Virus record (IMG/VR): IMGVR_UViG_3300031232_000004
Coordinates: 1 to 63,319 of that record
DNA: 63,319 bases
Strand: one strand, 5' to 3'
From: a virus
Shown: piece by piece, positions 14,177 through 49,416 of the stretch
How the letters are laid out: each line of letters begins with the position of its first letter
How positions within the stretch are numbered: position 1 is the stretch's first letter
The notes under the pieces: model-generated
What the model was told of the DNA's origin: nothing
Seen by the model: only the letters and a program-made list of their open reading frames with translations
Database searches by the model: none
Position numbers and translations under genes: made by a program

Positions 14177-15631
14177 CTACAGACTCTTCAAAGCCCTTTC
14201 TCTAATTGTTTGGAACTGTTCGTGCTTAATAAACTGACCATCCTCCCAAACTGGTTGAAGGATACTTTGGTTTTCTTGTTCTTTGGTTGCTTGATCTACC
14301 AGTTTTAGTCCACTTTCGGTCTGAAGAACAGCTAGGCGACCCTTAGCGCTATTTTTCATACCATTATCGGTAATAGGTTTCTTGAAAATATCAATCCCCT
14401 TGCCATCAATTTGGACCCATGTTGCCTTCATAGCAAAACCAAATGTGTCGCGGGTAACATATTGATAAGTATAAGATCCGATACCAAAAACAATATTACC
14501 AGAAGAAAAACCCTTCTTTTCAAGAAGGTTTAGAATTGTTTCGCATCTTTCTGGGGTAATAGAATCTCCATAGATACATCCAATATGAGAATCTAATGCC
14601 TTAAAGCTTTTGGAAGTAATAGTTCCTCCAAATACGTCCCAAAGGCATTCAACAGTGCCCTTATGTGCTGGAGTCCCAATTGGAGCGTCTGGATCTCCAC
14701 AGATAATCTTAACAGGATCTCCACTATCTGGACGAATAACAACCTTTCCGTTCCTACTTAAAATCTTGTCTTTCAAAGAAGGAATAATTTCTGTCAATAC
14801 CTTCCAGAGATCCCAAGTATCGGATACAATACTTACAACACCTTCCTTATAAATGTCTAGTAGGTTGGAAAAAGTTTCACATTCGCTATTTTCACCACCA
14901 GCACACATTACACTGTGTTCGGTTGCAGCAACGGATCCTCCAATAAGGCCAGGTTTATGGTTGGGGTAATAATCCTCAACCAAATCAAGGGCGGGAATAG
15001 TGTCTGTCCCCGTAAAGAACAGTAGATGGGCTGCTCCGCTTAAAGAAGCGGCTTCTGGGCCAGCCATTCCACGAAAAGAAAAATCATGTCCCTGCCATCC
15101 AACAAAACCTGGGTCAGCACCAGTTCTTTCGGTGGCAGCGTAAATTAGCTTTCGATACCTAGAAGCTGTTGTGGCCGAGGTACAAGGAAGCCATAAAACA
15201 TTCGACAAAATAGTTTCAAAATAATTTACCAACCAGAAAAAGTCTGGGTGGGTGTTTTCAATTGTAAGCATAGGAACACGCAGGGGGACCTTACTACCTT
15301 CGGGGACGGCCCGAATCAAAAGGGGTAAATACCCTAGATCGTGAAGAGCCTTAATATGATCTACACCGACAGAATTGGGGCCTAAGTATCCATTAACACG
15401 ATCCGCATATGCTTTGGCTACAAAAGAAATATGCTCATTAAAAAAGCTCTTGGAGAATTCTTCTTGAAGATACTTCTCTAAAAAGTATTGAAGGCCAAAA
15501 AAATAGACTTCATCTACTCCATCTACCCTAGAAGACCTTGGAGTCCAATTCGAATAAACATATTCGGTTTTTGCAGGGTATTGTCGGCGGTGATCTAGCT
15601 TGTATCCATCGATCAAAGTAACTGGATTCAT
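14177..15631 (-). CDS. nampT: Nicotinamide phosphoribosyltransferase
   Basis: 484 residues, the usual NAMPT length. Family signatures include the N-terminal IDGYKLDHRRQYP and Y-SNWTPRSSR, the central SFRGM and FFTGTDTIPAL, a SVAATEHSV active-site stretch, VSDTWDLWKV, VIRPDSGDP, and GIGSYTYQ near the nucleotide pocket. It converts nicotinamide + PRPP to NMN, the rate-limiting NAD+ salvage step. Start preceded by AAGGAG. It lies 16 nt downstream of PRPP synthetase in a two-gene operon, so the phage supplies both substrate and enzyme. Likely purposes are feeding NAD-dependent enzymes or refilling NAD+ emptied by host defences. Confidence 0.93.
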   Translation of the reverse strand: MNPVTLIDGYKLDHRRQYPAKTEYVYSNWTPRSSRVDGVDEVYFFGLQYFLEKYLQEEFSKSFFNEHISFVAKAYADRVNGYLGPNSVGVDHIKALHDLGYLPLLIRAVPEGSKVPLRVPMLTIENTHPDFFWLVNYFETILSNVLWLPCTSATTASRYRKLIYAATERTGADPGFVGWQGHDFSFRGMAGPEAASLSGAAHLLFFTGTDTIPALDLVEDYYPNHKPGLIGGSVAATEHSVMCAGGENSECETFSNLLDIYKEGVVSIVSDTWDLWKVLTEIIPSLKDKILSRNGKVVIRPDSGDPVKIICGDPDAPIGTPAHKGTVECLWDVFGGTITSKSFKALDSHIGCIYGDSITPERCETILNLLEKKGFSSGNIVFGIGSYTYQYVTRDTFGFAMKATWVQIDGKGIDIFKKPITDNGMKNSAKGRLAVLQTESGLKLVDQATKEQENQSILQPVWEDGQFIKHEQFQTIRERALKSL

Positions 15632-15647
15632 TTTTTCTCCTTGTTTG

Positions 15648-16502
15648 TTAACGGGTCATTGTTTCTACGAAATCTAAGACTACCACACCAACCCCTTGCT
15701 GTAAAGGAATAGAATCGGTAGTATATATCTTTTTAAAGATTTTATTTAAAGCTACAAAGCCTTTACTGAATAGCCCGTGGGTTACGTATAGAGACACTTC
15801 CGCCCCGGCCTCTTTTAGACTGTTACCCAGTCCTATAAAAGTCCCGCCGCCATCACAAATATCATCTACGATTAACAGATCTTTTCCATATAGAGAAGAA
15901 TCGTAATTATGACCAAAGCCTGTAATTGCTCCAGTAGAAATATCCCTTGTTTTATACCCGTTTACAATCGGGATGTTCAACAACTTTGCCACACCCGCCG
16001 CTCGTTTTTCAGATCCAGCATCAGGGGCAACAATTGCCGAAAAAGATGGGAACCTAGTCCAACACATATTAAAAACATCGTCCACCCCGTAAACTTTACA
16101 GTGATTTAGCAATGCTGGAGTCACTTCAGAGTGGGGGTCAAGGACGTGGACGGCTTTAAACCCAACAGAATTGATAATTTTTGCTATCGTTTTGACCGTA
16201 AAGAGGTAGTCCCCCTTCTTATTTAACCGATCTTGGCGTCCACCAGGCATAAATGGCAATACCAATTCCAACCAAGCCCCTGTATTTCTTTCAATATAAG
16301 CTTCCGCCCAAGCAATCCCAGCAATAAAATCAGACATACAAAAAGGACGTAAGACAAGGTGGGAAACGTTTCCTATTTTTCCCCACGTAGAAGGATCTCC
16401 ACTAGGGAAATGGATATAGGGAACATTGTCGGGGTAAACATTGATGGGAATTGAAGTAAAATTATGAAGAGTATCTTTAACGACCATATGTGAACAAAAC
16501 AT
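15648..16502 (-). CDS. prs: Ribose-phosphate pyrophosphokinase (PRPP synthetase)
   Basis: 284 residues, slightly shorter than bacterial Prs (~315). Visible motifs are LVLPFMPGGRQDR (ATP/ribose-5-P region), VLDPHSEV, VAPDAGSEKRA, and the PRPP-binding loop DLLIVDDICDGGGTFI. It makes PRPP from ribose-5-phosphate and ATP. RBS AAGGAG; the promoter lies directly upstream (16520-16548). Co-transcription with NAMPT shows the intended use of the product; PRPP also feeds nucleotide synthesis. Confidence 0.93.
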   Translation of the reverse strand: MFCSHMVVKDTLHNFTSIPINVYPDNVPYIHFPSGDPSTWGKIGNVSHLVLRPFCMSDFIAGIAWAEAYIERNTGAWLELVLPFMPGGRQDRLNKKGDYLFTVKTIAKIINSVGFKAVHVLDPHSEVTPALLNHCKVYGVDDVFNMCWTRFPSFSAIVAPDAGSEKRAAGVAKLLNIPIVNGYKTRDISTGAITGFGHNYDSSLYGKDLLIVDDICDGGGTFIGLGNSLKEAGAEVSLYVTHGLFSKGFVALNKIFKKIYTTDSIPLQQGVGVVVLDFVETMTR

Positions 16503-17678: not shown

Positions 17679-17780
17679 TGGCGGGGTAGGTAGGATTGAT
17701 ACCTACATTATCTACTATTTGCTAGTTGTATTCATAGAACTCCTAGTTGTCCTAGGCGCGTATAATTCCGCCACTACCCC
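17679..17780 (-). tRNA. Atypical long Leu-like tRNA, anticodon not assignable
   Basis: The acceptor stem GGGGTAG/CTACCCC pairs 7/7, followed by G and an encoded CCA. The D-arm region GTGGCGGAATTATACGCGC looks like tRNA-Leu but lacks the D-loop GG. The T-stem GTAGG/CCTAC is perfect, but its loop is TATCAAT instead of TTCRANY. The middle is ~10 nt too long, contains three CTAG motifs and a repeated ACAACTAG, and I cannot place a normal 7-nt anticodon loop. It could be a degenerate tRNA, a tRNA that needs processing, or a tRNA mimic. Confidence 0.5.
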
Positions 17781-17786
17781 ATAAGG

Positions 17787-17858
17787 TCTGAGATGAGAGG
17801 ATCGAACTCCCATAACCCTGCTCCCAAAGCAGGTGGCCAACCATTGGCCCAATCTCAG
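17787..17858 (-). tRNA. tRNA-Pro (TGG)
   Basis: Complete cloverleaf: acceptor CTGAGAT/ATCTCAG, D-arm GGCC-AATGGTT-GGCC, anticodon stem CCTGC/GCAGG around loop TTTGGGA (anticodon TGG), variable GTTAT, T-arm GGGAG-TTCGATC-CTCTC (one G-U), discriminator A. CCA is not encoded (ACCT follows). It is the one conventional tRNA in this cluster. Confidence 0.92.
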
Positions 17859-17903: not shown

Positions 17904-18055
17904 TAGAAACTAATAGCAACTTTTAAGATACCGAATCAAATTAATACGGTGATGTCCTTCCGCTAGACGACACCCCCACATTTGGAGGGGATGGAGAGAA
18001 TCGAACTCTCGTCTCAACCAGTTTTTTTCAGTACCGGTCGATCTACTATTTTCTA
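17904..18055 (-). tRNA. Putative circularly permuted tRNA gene 2
   Basis: Reading leftward, the 3' half comes first: variable GAGAC, T-arm GAGAG-TTCGATT-CTCTC, acceptor 3' strand CATCCCC, T, CCA. An 8-nt spacer that includes the CCA separates the acceptor strands, then the 5' half follows: GGGGGTG (5' end at 17977), TC, D-arm GTCTAGCGGAAGGAC, A, TCACC. The two acceptor strands pair 7/7 (one G-U). No T-arm lies further downstream and no matching 5' half lies upstream. Flanks are co-linearly complementary in four short helices (17904-17909/18050-18055, 17913-17916/18046-18049, 17927-17929/18041-18043, 17930-17933/18035-18038), so the ends of the halves can be held together. The break lies in or next to the anticodon arm; the anticodon stem has a mismatch and the anticodon is not assigned. 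Confidence 0.65.
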
Positions 18056-18072
18056 TTTTTGGTTTAAGTTTC

Positions 18073-18214
18073 GGAGTCAAGTCTAAAATTAAGTAAAACC
18101 CATTAAGTGCGTTTACCAGTTTCGCCACCTCCCCATACAGTGGGGAGGGAAGGATTTGAACCTCCAGTTTCTTATCGGTTTTATTAGATTAAGTTTTAGA
18201 TTGAGCTTGTCTCC
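18073..18214 (-). tRNA. Putative circularly permuted tRNA gene 1
   Basis: The 3' half precedes the 5' half: ATAAG, AAACT, T-arm GGAGG-TTCAAAT-CCTTC, acceptor CCTCCCC, A; then 6 nt (CTGTAT); then GGGGAGG (5' end at 18134), TG, D-arm GCGAAACTGGTAAACGC, A, CTTAA. The acceptor strands pair 7/7 Watson-Crick, better than either pairs with any other half in the cluster. CTTA/TAAG can form most of the anticodon stem. Flanks form a long interrupted helix: GGTTTTA (18094-18100) with TAAAACC (18177-18183), TTTTAGA (18082-18088) with TCTAAAA (18194-18200), CTTG with CAAG, CTCC with GGAG. CCA is not encoded. Variable loop length says class I; the anticodon is unknown. Confidence 0.65.
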
Positions 18215-18219
18215 ATATT

Positions 18220-18957
18220 TTAACTACCCAACAGGTAGCTAAAGAATTTGTTTCCGATCCGGATGGATTCAGCCTCTTCTTCATTAGCTGATTCCCGGGC
18301 ATACTTCACAGCCTTAATCAACTTTTCACACTTTGCAACTAGGGCCTCCTTCCGTGGAACGGGAATCGCCCCACTAATACGAATGTTAGACCAAACACCT
18401 ACACGAACATCTTCGGTCACCTTTTCAACTTGAGCCGGATGCTTGTCCGTTGCTGGATATAGGACAACAGGTTTAAGGATCTTCTTCGTCTTAACAGTAT
18501 CAACCTTTTCGGTCTTATAAAGATTCTGGTTTGGGTCCAAAGACCACGACTCCGAAACATCCAGGGTTGGAAGAGCCCGAAGCGTAGTATGGAAATCGGT
18601 AAGAGTCTTTTCCATAAAGAGAAGGAAAGTGGCCGGTACGCCCCCCACCAAAACCTCCCCATCTACCACCACATCCCCCTTGGCCTTACAATTAGCATAG
18701 TCCTTGGTAGCAGAGATATCCATAAGTTCAGCCATCCCAGTTTCAACCTGCTTCAATAGGTCTTCAACCTTGTACTGAACTTGCTTACGCTCTTCGGGCA
18801 GCTTTTCACCGTCCTCTGCGTCGGGACGATATCCCTTAACAAAACCATTAAACAGATCAGACTTTTGAAGAGTATGGTAGACTCCGTTAATGATATCTCC
18901 TTGAATACGACCCTTGATACCTTTTTCTACTGCGATGACTTGATTTAGTTTTTGCAT
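18220..18957 (-). CDS. Conserved phage protein of unknown function
   Basis: 245 residues beginning KLNQVIAVEKGIKGR and containing PEERKQVQYKVEDLLK. This start resembles a conserved protein family I recall from large actinophage genomes (annotated there only as a DUF); the link needs a search. No enzyme motif, membrane segment or signal peptide is visible; the centre has a VVVDGEVLVGGVPATFLLF strand block. RBS AAAGGA before the ATG. It is the last protein gene before the tRNA cluster, and its stop lies a few bases from the flank of permuted tRNA 1. Confidence 0.7.
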   Translation of the reverse strand: MQKLNQVIAVEKGIKGRIQGDIINGVYHTLQKSDLFNGFVKGYRPDAEDGEKLPEERKQVQYKVEDLLKQVETGMAELMDISATKDYANCKAKGDVVVDGEVLVGGVPATFLLFMEKTLTDFHTTLRALPTLDVSESWSLDPNQNLYKTEKVDTVKTKKILKPVVLYPATDKHPAQVEKVTEDVRVGVWSNIRISGAIPVPRKEALVAKCEKLIKAVKYARESANEEEAESIRIGNKFFSYLLGS

Positions 18958-27571: not shown

Positions 27572-28363
27572 TTAGGTCCCCTTCCTAAAAAGGGCCACGA
27601 TATTCCCCTGGGTAGGTTCCCAGTTTGAAGGAAACTTATAGTTGATAGAATCGCTAAACAAGGGCCGGAGTTCGGCACAATCCTGTAAAGTTGAATTCAA
27701 GACGATTACCGGCAAGGTCTTCCCATAGAGCCCTCGATCCAGGACGTTCTTCAGGACGGCCTTACGGATATACTTATAATTAAAGCTTTCCCCGGTCGTG
27801 AAGATAGATCCCCGAATATGATCTACTAGATCATTAAAGGTAGGACACAAAACATCCTTCATTATAGGGGCCTTAGGATTACTAATCAGTTCCAATTCAT
27901 TACCAAGATGCCGAAGCTCGGTAACAAGCATGGCATATTGCTGGGTTCCAAACTCTCGCTGTACACCAAAGCTTGGCTCGATGTTCTTTGCAATGTCCGA
28001 GTACATCTTTCGAGCGTCGATAACGATCCCCCCACTCTTTTCAACATACAAGGCGGTACTAGCTACGGCCTGGCCATCTCCACCCGCAAAGATACCCTTC
28101 AAACGTGTCGGAATAGTGGCATGTTCTAGCTCTTTAACCAGAAGTTCAAGCTCTTCCTTGGCTGAAGCTATACGGACCTCCCAACCGGGCCGCATACGTG
28201 CATCAATAGATTCAATAGAAGTATTTGCGATCTTATCAGTAGTGTTGATACGATCAAATAGTTCCTTCATAGGGTTCACTGGTTCTGCTTCAGTGGCCCC
28301 AATCGCTTCTTGTGTAGTAACTACTTCTGGAGTAACATCTTCGTCAGTGCTTTTTCGTTTCAT
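27572..28363 (-). CDS. Hypothetical protein upstream of SSB
   Basis: 263 residues. An acidic, Thr/Glu-rich N-terminus (~1-40) precedes a helical domain, including an EELELLVKELEH coiled-coil stretch. No catalytic motif is recognised. The start overlaps the DnaE C-half stop by 4 nt. A replisome accessory role is plausible from position only. Confidence 0.55.
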   Translation of the reverse strand: MKRKSTDEDVTPEVVTTQEAIGATEAEPVNPMKELFDRINTTDKIANTSIESIDARMRPGWEVRIASAKEELELLVKELEHATIPTRLKGIFAGGDGQAVASTALYVEKSGGIVIDARKMYSDIAKNIEPSFGVQREFGTQQYAMLVTELRHLGNELELISNPKAPIMKDVLCPTFNDLVDHIRGSIFTTGESFNYKYIRKAVLKNVLDRGLYGKTLPVIVLNSTLQDCAELRPLFSDSINYKFPSNWEPTQGNIVALFRKGT

Positions 28364-30987
28364 TGTTCTTCCTTGCTTACTGGACCTGATATAACCTCGA
28401 TCTGATTAATACTAAAATTCCACCCCGGAGATCTAGTTAAGATTGCCACTACTACCGATCCTTTTTCAATGGCCTTAACAGAAGGTTCCATTGTTCCATC
28501 TTTCTGAGGCCATTTTACCACATCGCAGCTAAAACCGCAAGCATCAAGATGGAATACACGCATCTGCTTAGTCTTATTCTGATATGCCTTATCTTCAATA
28601 TCCACGACGTAGGCCAGTACACATACCCGGTATCCGTTATCGGGAACATAGTCGGTTTCAGATAACTCTTCAAACTGGACACCGCTAATAACAACGGCCT
28701 TTGTTGAGAACTCTTCGTTAGTTTTAAAATTGGTATAGGAATAGTTGTAATATAAAGATTCTTCTTCTTTAGTGATTTTAGAGTGTTGAACAAGCCCACG
28801 GAAATCAATACTGTAAACAGGTAAAGTTTTTTTAATTAGCTGGTAGCGCTCTAGTTCATTGGGGGACTTATATTTAGTTTTTGTGATAGATACCTTTCCC
28901 CCGGCCTTTTTACAGGCCGCTTTCAGTGCCTTTATATAAAAATCCATGATTTCTGGGATAGTATATTTGATATCGAACAGGGGGTCTAGGAGCCCGGCCG
29001 CAGCCAAGGTGTAAATAGTCCCTACAGTAATAGCTGACTTTCCCCACACATTGTTTTCAGCCGTTGCGATCCGGTGTTTTACAATCCCATCGGCTAAATC
29101 TTGAATATTACTATAGGGGGCATATTTACATAGTTGTACGTGGGCTGCTTCTCCAATACCATGTAAGAGTGACAAAGGGGCTTTGATCTTAGCCCCGGAA
29201 ATAGTAAAGTTATTCACCGGTTCTTTTAGGTTAGGGAGTTCAGTAAAGATGCCGCAATAGGGCCAGAACTTGGTGGGGATTTCAGTTTTCTTAGCGTTTT
29301 GGAGCACACCACACCACCACTCCAGGTTATAGTGGTGTTTCAGGTAGGCGCATGCGTAAGAGATAAAGGAATAGGCCGTTGCATGTGAACAATTGTGGGC
29401 AACAGCCCCATTCTCAAGGAGAAAATTATGGGTCTTGGGTATTTCCATATCCCAAACGGGCTGGATACAAAGGCTTCTTACATTAACTATTTTTTGTTGG
29501 ATCGAACAACCGTTTTTTTTCCTAATTTCTATATCGCCCTTGAAGATTAATTCTTTTAATTCAATCCACTCTTCATCATACAAAAATCTATGGTCTTCAG
29601 TAGCTACATCTTTACTCCCATCAAATAATTCCACCTCAAAAACTTCCTTACGACCCATCTCTTTTACCCACAGAGGATGGACATAAATAATACTACCGTC
29701 TTCTTGTAGAGTAGCTACAAGATCTTTTACGGTTACTTCTTTTATAGGAACATTGCCTCGAAGGGTTTTAATCTTTTGATCTTCATAGAGGCAGTTGAAA
29801 CCGTAGGCCGCCCAACTCACCAAAGAGGCCCATACCCCTTGGGCCTTTTCTTTACCAATCTTGGCCCCGGCCCGTTCCATAAAGAACTTATAGGCCGCGT
29901 CTACCTTTTCCTTTTTCTTTTTGGCTACATTGCCTCGAAACTCCTCCGCTTCCCCTCCTGTACACCCGGTAAGCTCCTGGTAAACCCTTTGTAGGGATTC
30001 TTGGAAGATCAAAATACCTTGGGTTTCTGGGACTAGTTCTTCTAGGATAGGTAGAATATCGGGGCTCTTGGGAAGCCCTTGAAGGCGTTTGGCGTATTCC
30101 ACTAAGGCATTATGTGTCCCCAACCCTTCCCCGTCCTGTACAATGTAATCAAGCGGCCCCGGCCGGTCTAGGGCTGTAAATTCGGCCATAGCCTGGATGC
30201 TGTTAATACCCGGGGTTCCGTCTGGCCGTGTAAAGTCAAAATACTTAAGCCATTTTTTGGCCGATGCAGTATTGAACTGAAAAACTGTTTCTGTAATACT
30301 TTTACTTACATCTTGGAATACGGCGGGATCTTCTGGTAGGAGCCAAATATTTTTGATGCCTTGTTTGGTGGGGATTTCATCAAATGAAGACGTAGCCCTT
30401 TCATCCGGAGTCATATACCGTTCTCTAATCAGCCCCATACACGATTGAATATCGTTGATTTGATTGACTACTAGGAAGTCCATCTTAAGCCCACCAATAG
30501 CCTCGATATCAGGCCCGGTAAAGTCTGTGACCTTCCCGTCCTTAGTGGTGACAATTGGTGTGAAATCACCTACTGAACGATTAGATATTAGGAAGGCGCA
30601 AGCGTGTTTCCCCTTACTTCTAGGTAGAGATATGGCCATCTTTACCACGTCCCACTGCTTGGGGTATTTTTTGATAAACTCTTTTAAAGCTACATCTGTT
30701 TCGATAGATCCTTGGTGGAAGCCCTCGTCGTTCTCCCATCCTAGGATAAATTCAAGGTCATTCGCCCCTTGTGGGGCTACAGACATTTTCTTTGTTAAGG
30801 CGGCTACTTCTGGGGGGACGGCCCCAAACATGGCCCGGGTAACATCTAGGATGGCTGACTTAAGCTTTAGCGTTCCCACGGTAGATATCTGGGCATAATG
30901 CCCACTATACCTTTCCTCTAACCATCCTGGGAAGTATTTGGGGATGGTTCCCTCCTGAGACGATCTAGTGATTTTTGTAAACTTCAA
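28360..30987 (-). CDS. DNA polymerase III alpha-like, C-terminal half, with cis mini-intein
   Basis: 875 residues before splicing, ~741 after. Residues ~21-55 (GWLEERYSGHYAQISTVGTL and following) continue the DnaE palm directly after the PDID catalytic motif carried by the separate N-half gene. The third catalytic Asp should lie in this half; ALDRPGPLDYI and the AAYGFN/CSHATAYS helix-hairpin region follow. It has no beta-binding or tau-binding extension that I can recognise beyond the final ~200 residues. The gene starts with its own ATG and has no C-intein sequence at its N-terminus. It overlaps the upstream ORF by 4 nt. The two halves must assemble non-covalently or be joined in some other way. 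Confidence 0.85.
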   Translation of the reverse strand: MKFTKITRSSQEGTIPKYFPGWLEERYSGHYAQISTVGTLKLKSAILDVTRAMFGAVPPEVAALTKKMSVAPQGANDLEFILGWENDEGFHQGSIETDVALKEFIKKYPKQWDVVKMAISLPRSKGKHACAFLISNRSVGDFTPIVTTKDGKVTDFTGPDIEAIGGLKMDFLVVNQINDIQSCMGLIRERYMTPDERATSSFDEIPTKQGIKNIWLLPEDPAVFQDVSKSITETVFQFNTASAKKWLKYFDFTRPDGTPGINSIQAMAEFTALDRPGPLDYIVQDGEGLGTHNALVEYAKRLQGLPKSPDILPILEELVPETQGILIFQESLQRVYQELTGCTGGEAEEFRGNVAKKKKEKVDAAYKFFMERAGAKIGKEKAQGVWASLVSWAAYGFNCLYEDQKIKTLRGNVPIKEVTVKDLVATLQEDGSIIYVHPLWVKEMGRKEVFEVELFDGSKDVATEDHRFLYDEEWIELKELIFKGDIEIRKKNGCSIQQKIVNVRSLCIQPVWDMEIPKTHNFLLENGAVAHNCSHATAYSFISYACAYLKHHYNLEWWCGVLQNAKKTEIPTKFWPYCGIFTELPNLKEPVNNFTISGAKIKAPLSLLHGIGEAAHVQLCKYAPYSNIQDLADGIVKHRIATAENNVWGKSAITVGTIYTLAAAGLLDPLFDIKYTIPEIMDFYIKALKAACKKAGGKVSITKTKYKSPNELERYQLIKKTLPVYSIDFRGLVQHSKITKEEESLYYNYSYTNFKTNEEFSTKAVVISGVQFEELSETDYVPDNGYRVCVLAYVVDIEDKAYQNKTKQMRVFHLDACGFSCDVVKWPQKDGTMEPSVKAIEKGSVVVAILTRSPGWNFSINQIEVISGPVSKEEQ
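29392..29793 (-). other. Mini-intein in the DnaE C-half
   Basis: 134 residues (protein residues 399-532). It begins with Cys (CLYEDQKIKTLRGNVPIKEV, block A) and has a block B-like DGSKDVATEDHRF. The C-terminal VWDMEIPKTHNFLLENG-AVAHN ends in His-Asn, and the next extein residue is Cys. There is no room for a homing endonuclease. The insertion splits AAYGFN/CSHATAYS, 3 residues downstream of the classic cyanobacterial split DnaE intein site (Y/CFNKSH). Confidence 0.9.
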
Positions 30988-31559
30988 TATTTAATTCCTT
31001 TTTGATCTAGGAGGCTTTTTAGATACCGATTTTGTTCCCCGAGGTAGGCCAGTTGCTTTTCCTGGGTTTGGTATTTTCTATATAGTTCCTGGCGAGTAGC
31101 ATACACCATTCTTAAGAATCTTTCCATACGAAATACTTCATATAATCTAGCGCGGGCTTCTTCTTGGGTAAGTTGGGCTATATATTCGGATTGGGATAGG
31201 CCGTCCGGGGGGTCGTATAACAATCCGGTATCATCGTTGGGGTTATAGAACTTAGCTTTAGGGAATCTCTTTCGGTATCGGGTGATAGGCATTCCCGAGG
31301 CACGGGCCATAAATTTCATATCTTCTATGCCCCAAGGCTTCTTCTTAGACCTTACCCAAAAATCCTCCAACATATCGATACCACATTCCCCTCCAAATTT
31401 ATTCAAGAGGAACTGGACGGCCTGGTTAGGCTGGAAGCATAGCCCCCGTTGCTTGTCGGACATGTCCAAGTATGTAGCATATAAGATACCGTCCTCTACA
31501 ATATAGGGACCTTTCTCGAAGTCGAGTTGGAGTTTTTTTATTTTATTGGGACGGGGCAT
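30984..31559 (-). CDS. Hypothetical protein between the two DnaE halves
   Basis: 191 residues from the ATG at 31559 (MPRPNKIKKL); an ATG at 31592 would add 11 residues and overlap the upstream gene. Basic, with long C-terminal helices (RMERFLRMVYATRQELYRK, then QNRYLKSLLDQ), so it may be coiled-coil. It overlaps the polymerase C-half by 4 nt, so the two are co-translated. It shows no homing-endonuclease or intein motif and may be a polymerase assembly or accessory factor. Confidence 0.6.
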   Translation of the reverse strand: MPRPNKIKKLQLDFEKGPYIVEDGILYATYLDMSDKQRGLCFQPNQAVQFLLNKFGGECGIDMLEDFWVRSKKKPWGIEDMKFMARASGMPITRYRKRFPKAKFYNPNDDTGLLYDPPDGLSQSEYIAQLTQEEARARLYEVFRMERFLRMVYATRQELYRKYQTQEKQLAYLGEQNRYLKSLLDQKGIKY

Positions 31560-31566
31560 TGTAAAC

Positions 31567-31788
31567 TTATAGACCTCTCGCGTCCTTTCCATTACATATA
31601 TGATTTACCAAACGCTTTAATATATTATCTAAAGCACTGTAATGATGCTGGATTTCAATCAAGTCATTAGCATCACACCCCTCGATGTCGGAATCTAGGT
31701 CAATACTATATTCTTCTAAGACCTTTAAGACCATCTGGAAGAGCTTTATCGGATCTTTTTCTTGTGGAGGGGTAGTCAGATCGATCAT
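31567..31788 (-). CDS. Small acidic helical protein
   Basis: 73 residues with RBS AAGGAG ~9 nt upstream. Predicted helices contain IKLFQMVLKVLEEYSIDLDSD and YSALDNILKRLVNHI. No motif recognised. One of four small genes that separate the polymerase halves. Confidence 0.55.
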   Translation of the reverse strand: MIDLTTPPQEKDPIKLFQMVLKVLEEYSIDLDSDIEGCDANDLIEIQHHYSALDNILKRLVNHICNGKDARGL

Positions 31789-31801
31789 AGTGGCACTCTC
31801 C

Positions 31802-31978
31802 TTAAATAAGCCTTTTCAAAATATAAGAAAAGATGAAAAATACCAAAAAGCCCCCGGCAAGTCCACTGTACCAAATACAAAAACTGTGAAAGCTTAATCC
31901 TAATCCAAGAAAGGTACACAACACGAGGAGAGAAAAGACAGCTACCCCAATAGTAGAATATCCAATAATTTTAAACAT
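31802..31978 (-). CDS. Small membrane protein, two TM helices
   Basis: 58 residues from the ATG at 31978 (MFKIIGYSTIG), chosen because AAGGAT lies just upstream and the start overlaps the preceding stop by 8 nt. Two hydrophobic helices separated by a short HSFCIWYSG turn, with a basic end. Function unknown. Confidence 0.5.
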   Translation of the reverse strand: MFKIIGYSTIGVAVFSLLVLCTFLGLGLSFHSFCIWYSGLAGGFLVFFIFSYILKRLI

Positions 31979-32207
31979 TAATATCCTTTCCATACAATTC
32001 TTCCCAAGTAAGACGCGCATCTAAACATTTTGAAATGATTTTAGAAACCTGATTCATAAGGGTGGTGACATTTCCACCAATAGGGGTAAGAACATATCCA
32101 AAGAGTTGGTAGGCGAGAGCCACCGATCTTTCATCTACCCCCGTCCTATTTACCGTTAATAGGTATTTTTGAGCACCTTTATAAACTTGGTACATATCTT
32201 CAGTCAT
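31971..32207 (-). CDS. Small hypothetical protein
   Basis: 78 residues, RBS-like AGGGGGTAGG directly before the ATG. Helical (VALAYQLFGYVL and LMNQVSKIISKCLDARLTWEE). It follows the polymerase N-half after 24 nt. No known family recognised. Confidence 0.5.
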   Translation of the reverse strand: MTEDMYQVYKGAQKYLLTVNRTGVDERSVALAYQLFGYVLTPIGGNVTTLMNQVSKIISKCLDARLTWEELYGKDINV

Positions 32208-32231
32208 CCTACCCCCTTCCCTTTCCTTATA

Positions 32232-33983
32232 CTACCACCAAGGAGTGAAGTCAAGGCCTTTGTCTAGGGCTTCTTTAATGGGGTATACACCCACAGATGT
32301 TTCAATTTTAAAGTCTTCTGGGAGGATATGCTTAGACCCGTCCTCGGCCTCGACTTCAACTACATCACATTCGTAGCCTTCCAATAGGTCCCGGCTCCTA
32401 AGGTCTTGATCAATATCGGGGAACTTACCAGATTTGATACGGTCAATAGTCAAGAATCGGTCTAGGGATAGATTATTTAAAATAGGATCTACATGGGTGA
32501 TCCCTAAAAGATAAGCTAGTAGCAATCCCCCAGCCGACCCACGGCCTGGCCCAGTAAGGTTGCCTTGGTTACGATATAGACGACATACCTCTTCATCGAT
32601 CCATAGATAAGGTAGTAGGTCTACTACCCCGTTATCATGGAGTAATTTAATTTCCTGTCTCAACCTAGCCACGTACACGGGGTTTTTAGGCATACGTCCG
32701 TGTTTTAAGATAAGCTCTTTAGTATGGGCTAAGGTGTCTTTAGGGAAGAATTTGGTAGGGAGTTCTACCTTGGTGTCAAACTTAAAATCCTTAAAGCCTT
32801 GTAGCCAATCCTTAGAGTCTTGAATCCATTTCTCGAAAGTAGTCTGATCTACCCCCATCTCCTTGGAAAAGTAGTCCCAGGCTTGATCTGAGGTAATCCT
32901 ACAGTACGTTTCATGGAAACGCCACGATCCTGACTGGGCCAGTCTTACGTCCTGGACTACTTTGTATTCAGGTAGGGTGAAGTGGGCATCGTCTGAAATA
33001 AGTGTTCTTAACCCATACTTCTTAGCCAGCCCCATCATAAACTTGTTCACCCCCCATTGAAGATCTCCGTTGGGGGCGGCTGGGGAACATTCGTTTTGGA
33101 CAAATTCTTCTTTTAGTTCAACCCGTTCAATCTCTGCACCTACATCCTCCCACGTGTAGTAGTTTTTTACTGCGTCAAACTTCTTATACTTTTTATTTTT
33201 CCAGGTACGGCCCAGTTCTTCGGCCTTCATTTCCACGCCATCGATTTTTAGTGTCTTGTTAAAATAGTGGACGATAGGGTCTATACGACCAGCCACATAA
33301 ATAAACACACCCTGGACCCAGTTGTGGGTACATCGGTGGGGAAAGACTTCCACAAACATCTTTTGACCAAAGATTCCGTACAACCGATCAAAGTATGCCT
33401 TAGCTAGAGACACCTTAGTAGAACCGTCAATCTTATCTGAAATCAAATGCCTGGACGCCATTCCAATAAGACACCCCGACCCCAGGGTAACGTTCATACT
33501 CCCTAGTTCCTCCATATCCCCCCAACCAAAAAGAGGCTTACGTTCCTTTCCATGGAGTTCGGCCCTAGCATCGGCCTTGGACAATAACTTCACACCTTTC
33601 AGATAGGCGTCATAGTCCTGGAAGTGTATGGTAGTGTGGTAGTATTTATTATAATCGATATAAGTACCGTCGGGGTTATAAGATAACCATTCCTCCTTGT
33701 TAGATCCCTTTGGTACAGTCCCCGTCTTGGGGATATTGTGCTTAGTCAGGATAGGGCATTTATCATCCCTGAAATAGGCCTCTAGCCCTAGGACGGGGAT
33801 CAGCCCATTCTTTTTGGCTAAGTCGTATATTTTATATGTAGCCCCTAAAGACCCATGATCGGTACAGGTAATTCCACCGGTTCCAAGTTCCTTTTCTAAC
33901 TTGGCAAAGGATTTAGGGGTGGAAGCTGAGTCTAGGGATTGTGGATGGCAATGCGGGGTAACGAAGTTTTGGAACTTAGACAT
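32232..33983 (-). CDS. DNA polymerase III alpha-like, N-terminal half (PHP domain + partial palm)
   Basis: 583 residues. N-terminal PHP domain: TPHCHPQSLDSAS, GITCTDHGSLG, GLEAYF, a HRCTHNW ligand stretch, and ISDDAHFTLPE. The polymerase part follows: GPGRGSAGGLLLAYLLGI and KFPDIDQDL, which carries the first two catalytic aspartates, then SRDLLEG. The protein then leaves the DnaE pattern with a ~45-residue tail (VVEVEAEDGSKHILPEDFKI, then ETSVGVYPIKEALDKG) ending FTPWW. The tail looks like part of an intein/Hint domain without the N-terminal Cys. The matching C-half is 1.2 kb downstream, after four small genes. Confidence 0.85.
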   Translation of the reverse strand: MSKFQNFVTPHCHPQSLDSASTPKSFAKLEKELGTGGITCTDHGSLGATYKIYDLAKKNGLIPVLGLEAYFRDDKCPILTKHNIPKTGTVPKGSNKEEWLSYNPDGTYIDYNKYYHTTIHFQDYDAYLKGVKLLSKADARAELHGKERKPLFGWGDMEELGSMNVTLGSGCLIGMASRHLISDKIDGSTKVSLAKAYFDRLYGIFGQKMFVEVFPHRCTHNWVQGVFIYVAGRIDPIVHYFNKTLKIDGVEMKAEELGRTWKNKKYKKFDAVKNYYTWEDVGAEIERVELKEEFVQNECSPAAPNGDLQWGVNKFMMGLAKKYGLRTLISDDAHFTLPEYKVVQDVRLAQSGSWRFHETYCRITSDQAWDYFSKEMGVDQTTFEKWIQDSKDWLQGFKDFKFDTKVELPTKFFPKDTLAHTKELILKHGRMPKNPVYVARLRQEIKLLHDNGVVDLLPYLWIDEEVCRLYRNQGNLTGPGRGSAGGLLLAYLLGITHVDPILNNLSLDRFLTIDRIKSGKFPDIDQDLRSRDLLEGYECDVVEVEAEDGSKHILPEDFKIETSVGVYPIKEALDKGLDFTPWW

Positions 33984-47493: not shown

Positions 47494-47522
47494 TTGACTT
47501 TTTACGTTAAAAGACTTATAAT
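47494..47522 (+). promoter_or_regulatory. Strong leaderless promoter of groEL
   Basis: TTGACT, 17-nt spacer, TATAAT, then CCGTTTC and ATG (47530). Predicted +1 coincides with the A of the ATG. An upstream ATG at 47494 lies on the -35 and is not a plausible start. Confidence 0.75.
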
Positions 47523-47529
47523 CCGTTTC

Positions 47530-49416
47530 ATGGAATATGTTAAGAATCACACAGCCTACAAAGAGATGGTTTCGAGGGGAGCTAAGCTTGATAAGATTTT
47601 GCTTGATAGCACCAGTGAAATCGCCCGTTTGGTCGGGTCTACCCTCGGCCCAGGTGGACGCCCCGTAGCTATCGAACGCCAAGAGTGGAACCTCCCACCA
47701 GTCTTGACCAAGGACGGGGTTACTGTTTTCCGGTCTCTGGGCTTTAGAGATTCTTGTAAGCAGGCCGTGTTAGAACTTATGCGTGATGCCAGTGTCCGTA
47801 CCGCCGATGAAGCCGGGGATGGGACGACCACGGCTACTATTCTGTCTGAAATTCTATTTCGAAAAACACATGAATTCTGTAAGAACCATCCCCACACCCC
47901 TCCTATCCGTGTAATCCACTCCATTAACCGGATTTGGAAAGAAATCCTAGAACCTTCGATTTCTGATTTTTCCCTGGAATGTGATTTTTCTACTCCCCAA
48001 GGAAAAGAGCGTTTGCGCCAGGTCGCCCTTATTTCGGCCAATGGTGACAAAGAGTTGTCCGAAGCTGTAATCAAGTGCTATGAGATAGCCGGTGACGATG
48101 GGAATGTTACTATTCTTGAGTCTTCAGGCCCGTTTGGATATGAAGTAGAAAAACTAGAAGGATTCCCGGTTCTTACAGGTTTTGAAGAATCTTGTGGAAA
48201 GTTCTTCCCAGTTTTCATTAATGATCAAGCAAATCAACGGGTTATGGTTGATAAGCCGATGTTTATTTTGTTCAATGGCCGGATTTCCGATTGGAATGCT
48301 TTATCTAGGGTGTTAATGAAGCTTCAGGTCGGATATATGTCTGGGGAAATTAAGACCCCTAACCTGGTTGTTTATGCCGCTGGATACGGGGACAATGTTC
48401 TTGCCAACCTAGCCAGTGTTTGGGGGGATGGATCTCAACTCAATATCTTCCCCGCCCTTATCCCTAATCGTGATGCCATCCTTAATGCCCAGACATACTT
48501 CCTAGAAGATTTGGCCGCTATTACTGGGGCTAGTATTTTTGATCCAGGGGTAACTAAATCCTTGGACGATCTAAAAGAAGACGACATCGGGAATCTGTAT
48601 TGGAAGGATGATGACCCCGAGACTAGGGTATTGGTTCCTCAAGGGGTTAAGTTTTTTGAATGTAACAGGTATCGTAGCAATATCGTTGGTTATGCCGATC
48701 CTGAACAGGTCCTGGTTCGGGCCGATGAAATTAAAGCTTCTATTGCTGCTGCTGAATCTCAATATGACCGAATCTATCACCAAGAACGGTACGGTAAGTT
48801 GTCCGGGGGGCTGGCTAAGCTTCGTGTCGTGGGATCTAGCAACGGTGAACTAAAAGAGCGTCGGGACCGGGCCGAAGATGCCGTGTGCGCTGTTCGTGGG
48901 GCGATCAAACATGGTTGTATTATTGGGGGTGGATGGACTCTCCTTGCTTTGAGGCAAAAACTACAAGAATCCCTAAAGAATGGGACTCCGCTAGATATTG
49001 AAATCTATAATGAGATCTTGAATGAAGTATTAGTAGCTCCACTCCTGGTTCTACATTCTAATGCGGGGTATGTTACCCAGGTAGAAAAGACGGAATCTAA
49101 TCCTGATGGCTTGGAAGTAAGTGAAGACATTAATGAAATGTATATGTCCGTTACTGGGAAACTTGACCCTAAAAAGGCCAAGACTTTTGACGTTGCTAAA
49201 GGAAAGCTTGTTAGTGGGCTAAAAGAAGGTATTTTGGATTCTACACCAGCCCTGAAAGAAGCCCTCCGAAATTCCATTAGTATTGCCACTAGTTTGGGGA
49301 CTTTGGGTGGTATAGTTGTCCAGCCTCGGGTAGAAGCCGTTGATAGGCAAGAGGCCCGTGATGCTAAGGACTATGATCGGGCTGCTAGGGAGTTTGATCC
49401 TAACGACAGGACGTAG
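47530..49416 (+). CDS. groEL: GroEL-like chaperonin (Hsp60)
   Basis: 628 residues, longer than bacterial GroEL (~548). Equatorial/ATP motifs: LGPGGRPVAIE, VLTKDGVTVFRSL, ADEAGDGTTTATIL near residue 95, and the C-terminal DAVCAVRGAIKHGCIIGGG. The apical domain is divergent and enlarged (~residues 190-400). There is no GGM-repeat tail. It should fold phage proteins, perhaps a capsid or polymerase subunit that the host chaperonin cannot fold. The start is set by the promoter. A GroES-like candidate is at 57989. Confidence 0.93.
   Translation: MEYVKNHTAYKEMVSRGAKLDKILLDSTSEIARLVGSTLGPGGRPVAIERQEWNLPPVLTKDGVTVFRSLGFRDSCKQAVLELMRDASVRTADEAGDGTTTATILSEILFRKTHEFCKNHPHTPPIRVIHSINRIWKEILEPSISDFSLECDFSTPQGKERLRQVALISANGDKELSEAVIKCYEIAGDDGNVTILESSGPFGYEVEKLEGFPVLTGFEESCGKFFPVFINDQANQRVMVDKPMFILFNGRISDWNALSRVLMKLQVGYMSGEIKTPNLVVYAAGYGDNVLANLASVWGDGSQLNIFPALIPNRDAILNAQTYFLEDLAAITGASIFDPGVTKSLDDLKEDDIGNLYWKDDDPETRVLVPQGVKFFECNRYRSNIVGYADPEQVLVRADEIKASIAAAESQYDRIYHQERYGKLSGGLAKLRVVGSSNGELKERRDRAEDAVCAVRGAIKHGCIIGGGWTLLALRQKLQESLKNGTPLDIEIYNEILNEVLVAPLLVLHSNAGYVTQVEKTESNPDGLEVSEDINEMYMSVTGKLDPKKAKTFDVAKGKLVSGLKEGILDSTPALKEALRNSISIATSLGTLGGIVVQPRVEAVDRQEARDAKDYDRAAREFDPNDRT

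Follow-up and report, generated by a model that had tools for sequence, protein, structure and literature searches.

Two tandem elements in IMG/VR virus record IMGVR_UViG_3300031232_000004, which we call RNA A (18073-18214) and RNA B (17904-18055), are likely to be Y-RNA-like tRNA mimics coupled to a protein of the unnamed family DUF7873. The window analyzed is the whole record, 63,319 bases, classed among linear or fragmentary records. Both elements are on its minus strand, directly downstream of a DUF7873 gene (18220-18957, minus strand, 245 amino acids), and each holds the parts of a tRNA in circularly permuted order. DUF7873 is probably their protein partner. Ro60 is the established partner of bacterial tRNA-mimicking Y RNAs, and what we describe is a second, equally tight coupling of a protein to such RNAs besides Ro60, present in 69 of 150 genomes of the genus Streptomyces and in phages. 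The coupling offers a testable role for DUF7873, and it opens a way to ask what purpose tRNA mimicry serves. It also brings a caution for annotation: before permuted tRNA halves from a bacterium or phage are called tRNA genes, they should be checked for the Y-RNA form.

Permuted order and covarying structure

RNA B reads in the order T-arm, acceptor 3' strand, spacer, acceptor 5' strand, D-arm. The T-arm (17994-18010) has stem strand GAGAG (18010-18006), loop TTCGATT, and then CTCTC (17998-17994). It is followed by CATCCCC (17993-17987), pairing 7/7, including one G-U, with GGGGGTG (17977-17971) across a 9-nt acceptor-closing loop, TCCAAATGT (17978-17986), which opens with TCCA and contains a CCA. 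The letters TC separate GGGGGTG from the D-arm, GTCTAGCGGAAGGAC (17968-17954). The flanks on both sides of this tRNA-like part are complementary, and in alignment A3 they are the 2 strands of a lower stem, the 5' strand (18011-18055) carrying the motif AUCGACC, and the 3' strand (17904-17953) carrying the inner-loop motif AATTTGA and the outer motif CTTAAAA. RNA A, just upstream, is a second copy of the same build, with T-arm GGAGG TTCAAAT CCTTC (18149-18165), acceptor 3' strand CCTCCCC (18142-18148), acceptor-closing loop ACTGTAT (18135-18141), acceptor 5' strand GGGGAGG (18128-18134), a D-arm (18109-18125) that we take to be tRNA-Leu-like, and again a long lower stem.

The scan that locates these parts asks, in its strict form, for a T-arm, the T-loop consensus, a 7/7 acceptor partner within 150 nt, and a D-arm. 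Over both strands of the 63,319 nt, it has 2 matches only, RNA B and RNA A (T-loop at 18160). Folding the minus strand gives z = −3.24 for 17904-18055 and z = −4.13 for 18063-18214, with 0 of 200 shuffles folding as well in either case. A first-pass annotation of the window had proposed the permuted order with its 7/7 acceptor and single G-U, its occurrence as a tandem pair, complementarity of the flanks, and an origin other than chance. The minus-strand letters and the strict scan agree with the order and the pairing; the pair recurs behind DUF7873 in relatives; the ends form a lower stem that covaries; and conservation across relatives, covariation, and the fold z-scores speak against chance.

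The same annotation had held that a conventional tRNA assembled from the 5' half of one copy and the 3' half of the other would be poorly matched and overlong. That product has only 6/7 acceptor pairs over 149 nt, and it is what Rfam calls a tRNA at 33.7 bits (cut-off 29), from the 5' half of RNA A and the 3' half of RNA B. ARAGORN finds tRNA-Pro (17785-17858) in the window and no other tRNA. When the combinations of halves are compared, as had been suggested, acceptor pairing is 7/7 within each element in 69 of the 75 loci having both, and cross pairings rarely reach 6 of 7 (5/75 loci for A5'-B3', 6/75 for the other combination). Because the elements pair within themselves in this way and the cross pairings fail, the pairing is correctly read as permuted. 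The permuted pair was also found in related genomes with its order kept, and intact unpermuted versions were not seen in the close relatives.

The family alignments contain 41 RNA B sequences, from 56 nonredundant ones, and 36 RNA A sequences, from 49. For RNA B, RNAalifold gives 35 pairs, 33 of them with double (compensatory) changes, and 92.9% of cells are paired, versus 66.3% when shuffled and 39% to 47% when slid. The outermost part is a 6-bp helix, followed by an internal loop whose 5' strand carries AUCGACC and whose 3' strand carries CUUAAACG. Inward of this are an 8-bp helix, another internal loop, in which G-A-Y-U-G-A is conserved on the 3' strand, and a 5-bp stem, above which stand the T-arm, the closed acceptor stem, and the D-arm. 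The sizes of the internal loops are about 11 and 14 alignment columns. The aligned structure lacks a 7-nt anticodon loop, and the RNA B alignment has no candidate splice motif that we could see and no bulge-helix-bulge form. The proposal that these are tRNA genes in need of a special processing system is left unsupported, an internal loop that is conserved and 2 more covarying helices taking the place of the anticodon loop. The encoded CCA that went with that proposal is present in the spacer of the window's RNA B, but it does not hold for the family, in which CCA follows the discriminator position in 29/123 RNA B and 24/81 RNA A elements.

RNA A covaries as well. Its structure has 37 pairs, 27 of them with double changes, a count that leans towards the structure chosen, since the lower stem was taken from a single sequence (L147) and then counted; 85.1% of cells are paired, versus 74.5% when shuffled and 32% to 43% when slid. 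RNAalifold on the RNA A elements predicts only the T-arm, acceptor, and D-arm. For searching, we made a model of RNA B, R1, from 32 rows, the dropped rows being L026, which was misaligned, five longer than 160 nt, and three that were not carried over. R1 scores 104.4 bits against the window's RNA B at 17909-18050, a row belonging to its own training set, and 29.2 bits against the window's RNA A, though that training set held no RNA A element.

Coupling to DUF7873 in phages and bacteria

The protein encoded upstream of the 2 elements matches DUF7873 (PF25283) at 312 bits against a Pfam cut-off of 27 (E = 4 × 10−93). PHROGs, NCBIfam, and PADLOC have no family for it, and a literature search gave no paper naming it. 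Searches for the RNAs, which did not cover two earlier studies of bacterial Y RNAs, gave no title or abstract opening naming DUF7873-linked RNAs. Relatives of the protein were found in 40 IMG/VR contigs, 73 named phage records, 4 records of a plasmid collection, and 240 bacterial stretches; the best 80 of the 240 serve as the bacterial loci, and 12 named phage or plasmid loci were fetched.

What can be observed in these loci is the sequence of the RNAs, their pairing, covariation, and conservation, and their genomic coupling to the protein. At least one permuted element is behind DUF7873 in 40/40 IMG/VR loci; the strict scan finds it in 35, a relaxed scan adds L021-L023, and R1 adds L010 and L024. 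By the relaxed scan, 79/80 bacterial loci have at least one element and 57/80 have two, and in the remaining locus, L131, one is detected by R1 at 80.8 bits. In the rest of that strand of the bacterial loci, 821,143 bases, the relaxed scan has a background of 2 matches. At least one element is found by scanner or model in 11/12 named phage or plasmid loci, and the phages fetched with DUF7873 and an element are those of Gordonia, Rhodococcus, Arthrobacter, Rhizobium, Vibrio, Klebsiella, and Pseudanabaena. Annotated phage records list DUF7873 as a "hypothetical" protein and leave the region right behind it mostly unannotated. It is the sole gene kept in 50/50 compared loci, with no gene besides it and its shadow frames widely common to them.

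A comparison of genomes with and without the protein is provided by 150 genomes of the genus Streptomyces. Full-length R1 matches of at least 62 bits occur in 69/69 genomes with DUF7873 and in 0/81 without it, on the same strand as the gene and 144-349 nt behind it; some R1 training rows are from Streptomyces, which helps sensitivity there and does not help explain the zero in the other 81 genomes. The Ro60 domain TROVE is present in 80 of the 150, distributed as 41/69 with DUF7873 versus 39/81 without (p = 0.19). RNAs A and B track DUF7873, not Ro60. Among 194 cyanobacterial genomes, 8 have DUF7873 and 7 have an R1 match of at least 60 bits, 6 of these with DUF7873; the other 2 genomes with the protein have weaker elements behind the gene, at 53.9 and 42.3 bits.

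Some by-products of these searches bear on tRNA genes themselves. Partial R1 matches in Streptomyces, at model positions 18-121, look like tandem tRNA genes. At G163:C1:141430-141684, three of them with a 78-nt period are probably tandem identical tRNAs mimicking the permuted order, and such tandems are a source of false positives for permuted-order scans. In a viral tRNA array, ARAGORN reports a tRNA with anticodon CTA (L027:911-983), possibly an amber suppressor.

Competing explanations and a proposed role

The closest known RNAs are those of Ro60. A published comparison of structures shows bacterial Y RNA 6CU1 to be a circular permutation of tRNA when the two are superposed (PMC11472068). 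Salmonella has 2 Y RNAs in an rsr-yrlBA-rtcBA operon (PMC7790460), and Ro60-like proteins or Y RNAs have been reported from phages (PMC7765460, PMC7824862, PMC12282133). RNAs A and B share with YrlA the permuted tRNA-like module with a capped acceptor stem, the pairing of the 5' and 3' ends into a long stem with internal loops, and the possibility of a tandem arrangement (yrlBA); YrlA too is reported in phages. The topology being identical, one may ask whether they are genuine Ro60-type Y RNAs partnered by Ro60, with DUF7873 as a neighbor or accessory, and we consider this improbable. In its favor, RNA B of L012 is a full-length match to Rfam YrlA model RF02553 (47.6 bits, E = 6 × 10−10), and other elements of L005, L014, and L018 match it more weakly. 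TROVE is found in 6/32 viral records, five of them above cut-off, and in 18/27 bacterial genomes with DUF7873; in one virus (L025:6001-9520), DUF7873, one A-type element, three Ro60-side permuted RNAs, and TROVE are found together. However, 47.6 bits is the best YrlA score among 12 records searched, short of the curated cut-off of 69 bits, and the window has no YrlA match. The 150 genomes show perfect coupling to DUF7873 and independence from TROVE. In viruses and bacteria that have both DUF7873 and TROVE, the Ro60-adjacent permuted RNAs are separate, matching R1 mostly over the tRNA-like module only. The lower stems differ also, RNA B having AUCGACC and its 3'-strand partner in place of the YrlA motifs. 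A CGAAG-type motif in the lower stem is, we presume, the Ro60-binding motif; a CGAAG-like motif is in the 5' flank of 9/13 Ro60-adjacent elements, which serve as positive control, versus 8/81 RNA A and 13/123 RNA B elements, so that the DUF7873-linked RNAs are mostly without it.

The tRNA-like acceptor, T-arm, and D-arm, the CCA encoded in the window's RNA B, and, in RNA A, the A at position 73 and the D-arm presumed to resemble that of tRNA-Leu would also suit true circularly permuted tRNA genes, whose transcripts would be cleaved and ligated at the anticodon end and would lose the spacer through RNase P and 3' processing. Genes of this kind, with 3' half, spacer, and 5' half in that order, are exemplified by Cyanidioschyzon merolae, green algae, and Thermofilum pendens. 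They exist in algae, a nucleomorph, and the archaeon Thermofilum according to a review whose text does not contain the word "phage" (PMC3978253). The present RNAs differ from them in having no anticodon loop or splice motif and in ending in a conserved long stem. What lies beyond the 5-bp stem, 2 internal loops with a conserved 3' strand and covarying helices of 8 and 6 bp, is hard to reconcile with a tRNA, and so are the small share of elements with CCA and the lack of an RNA ligase or splicing-endonuclease domain in the subset of window open reading frames given to Pfam. Hence we regard permuted tRNA genes as very unlikely. Genes of a tRNA array that have decayed or been reshuffled, or intron-containing tandem tRNAs, would explain why a real tRNA-Pro adjoins RNA B and why the A5'-B3' cross pairing reaches 6/7 and an Rfam call in the window, and ordinary tandem tRNAs can imitate the permuted order; but these readings are scarcely credible, given that the elements persist across diverse bacteria, that every arm shows compensatory changes, and that the A5'-B3' cross pairing of at least 6/7 is confined to 5 of 75 loci. 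The least probable reading of all is a permuted two-piece transfer-messenger RNA (tmRNA), which has the same order of T-arm, acceptor, CCA, spacer, and acceptor. Rfam RF04321 aligns over 40 nt at 17.9 bits, far below its cut-off of 47; ARAGORN finds no tmRNA in the window; a full D-stem is present; and the lower stem closes at the would-be coding region, where no tag region was recognized, a tag frame not having been sought.

For the Y-RNA-like mimics coupled to DUF7873, we can outline how they might work. A cassette DUF7873-A-B would give a tandem pair of small noncoding RNAs of about 140 to 150 nt, each mimicking tRNA in permuted strand order, with a short loop capping the acceptor stem and the 2 ends of the RNA extending as a long stem at the place of the anticodon loop. 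The lower-stem motifs would bind DUF7873, and the tRNA-like head may bind or block a tRNA-handling enzyme such as RNase P, a modification enzyme, a tRNA nuclease, or an exoribonuclease. The model for this proposed division of labor is Ro60, whose Y RNA acts in Deinococcus as a tether for PNPase (PMC4726728, PMC7790460), and a decoy role has been suggested for the tRNA-like domain of Salmonella YrlA (PMC7790460). Within a particle containing DUF7873, the RNA would then serve as tether or decoy, in the way that Y RNA serves Ro60, a step we put forward tentatively. It is conceivable, with about the same reserve, that in phages and bacteria alike DUF7873 and RNAs A and B make up a ribonucleoprotein that is undescribed, independent of Ro60, and based on tRNA mimicry. 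Within that reading, RNAs A and B would bind different surfaces or partners because their lower-stem motifs differ, and in phages the particle could shield or police tRNAs, for instance by decoying tRNA-cutting defense nucleases. Phage DUF7873 cassettes are often inside large tRNA arrays, a setting that fits a role in tRNA protection, and because bacteria also carry DUF7873 with the RNAs, the role is not necessarily viral. A plausible candidate for the contact site on the modeled protein is its best conserved stretch, TDKHPAQ, between 2 long strands.

Several results weigh against tRNA mimics with DUF7873 as their partner. The AlphaFold model of DUF7873 is confident (predicted local distance difference test score of 87.6), and it has no structural relative at Foldseek E ≤ 0.001 (best 0.015) and a best VIA-align Z of 6.1 at a root-mean-square deviation of 12.6. 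Because neither search finds a clear relative, the predicted fold is without a hint of RNA binding, and such fold searches appear to say little about DUF7873. The protein has an isoelectric point near neutral or acidic (median 6.2, n = 40), atypical for a strong RNA binder. Behind DUF7873 of Microcoleus phage L070, neither the relaxed scan nor R1 gives a clear element. The cyanobacterial genome G334 presents the opposite case, with RNAs A and B (L168:1700-2060, minus strand) and no detected DUF7873; its RNA A has lost the 5' strand at the junction where another gene starts, and from the sequence, this locus looks like a deletion scar. On the RNA side, the minimum free energy structure of the window's RNA B favors a local hairpin over the middle helix, and in RNA A, the innermost helix is weak (51.7% of cells paired) and the lower stem has less support than that of RNA B. 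Finally, adjacency alone is no proof of a shared DUF7873-RNA particle, and expression of the RNAs, binding to the protein, engagement of tRNA enzymes, and a biological role are matters that we infer.

Other features of the window

A near-identity phage search with 12 kb of the window gave no match, and no IMG/VR relatives of the neighboring exonuclease were confirmed. At 17680-17780 (minus strand), there is a tRNA-like stretch, GGGGTAG ... CTACCCC G CCA, class-II-like and reported by neither ARAGORN nor Rfam. Its anticodon arm looks wrong, and it is perhaps a decayed tRNA. DNA polymerase III alpha is encoded at 28360-33983 (minus strand) in 2 frames (32232-33983 and 28360-30987) with a 202-amino acid frame between them. 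The second frame has an intein-splicing match that is weak and falls short of the cut-off (26.1 bits), and judging from this arrangement, the gene is possibly split or intein-bearing. Two adjoining frames at 14177-16502 (minus strand) resemble, by eye, nicotinamide phosphoribosyltransferase and PRPP synthetase, as for NAD salvage. On the plus strand, 47494-49416 encodes a phage Cpn60 chaperonin (Pfam 102 bits).
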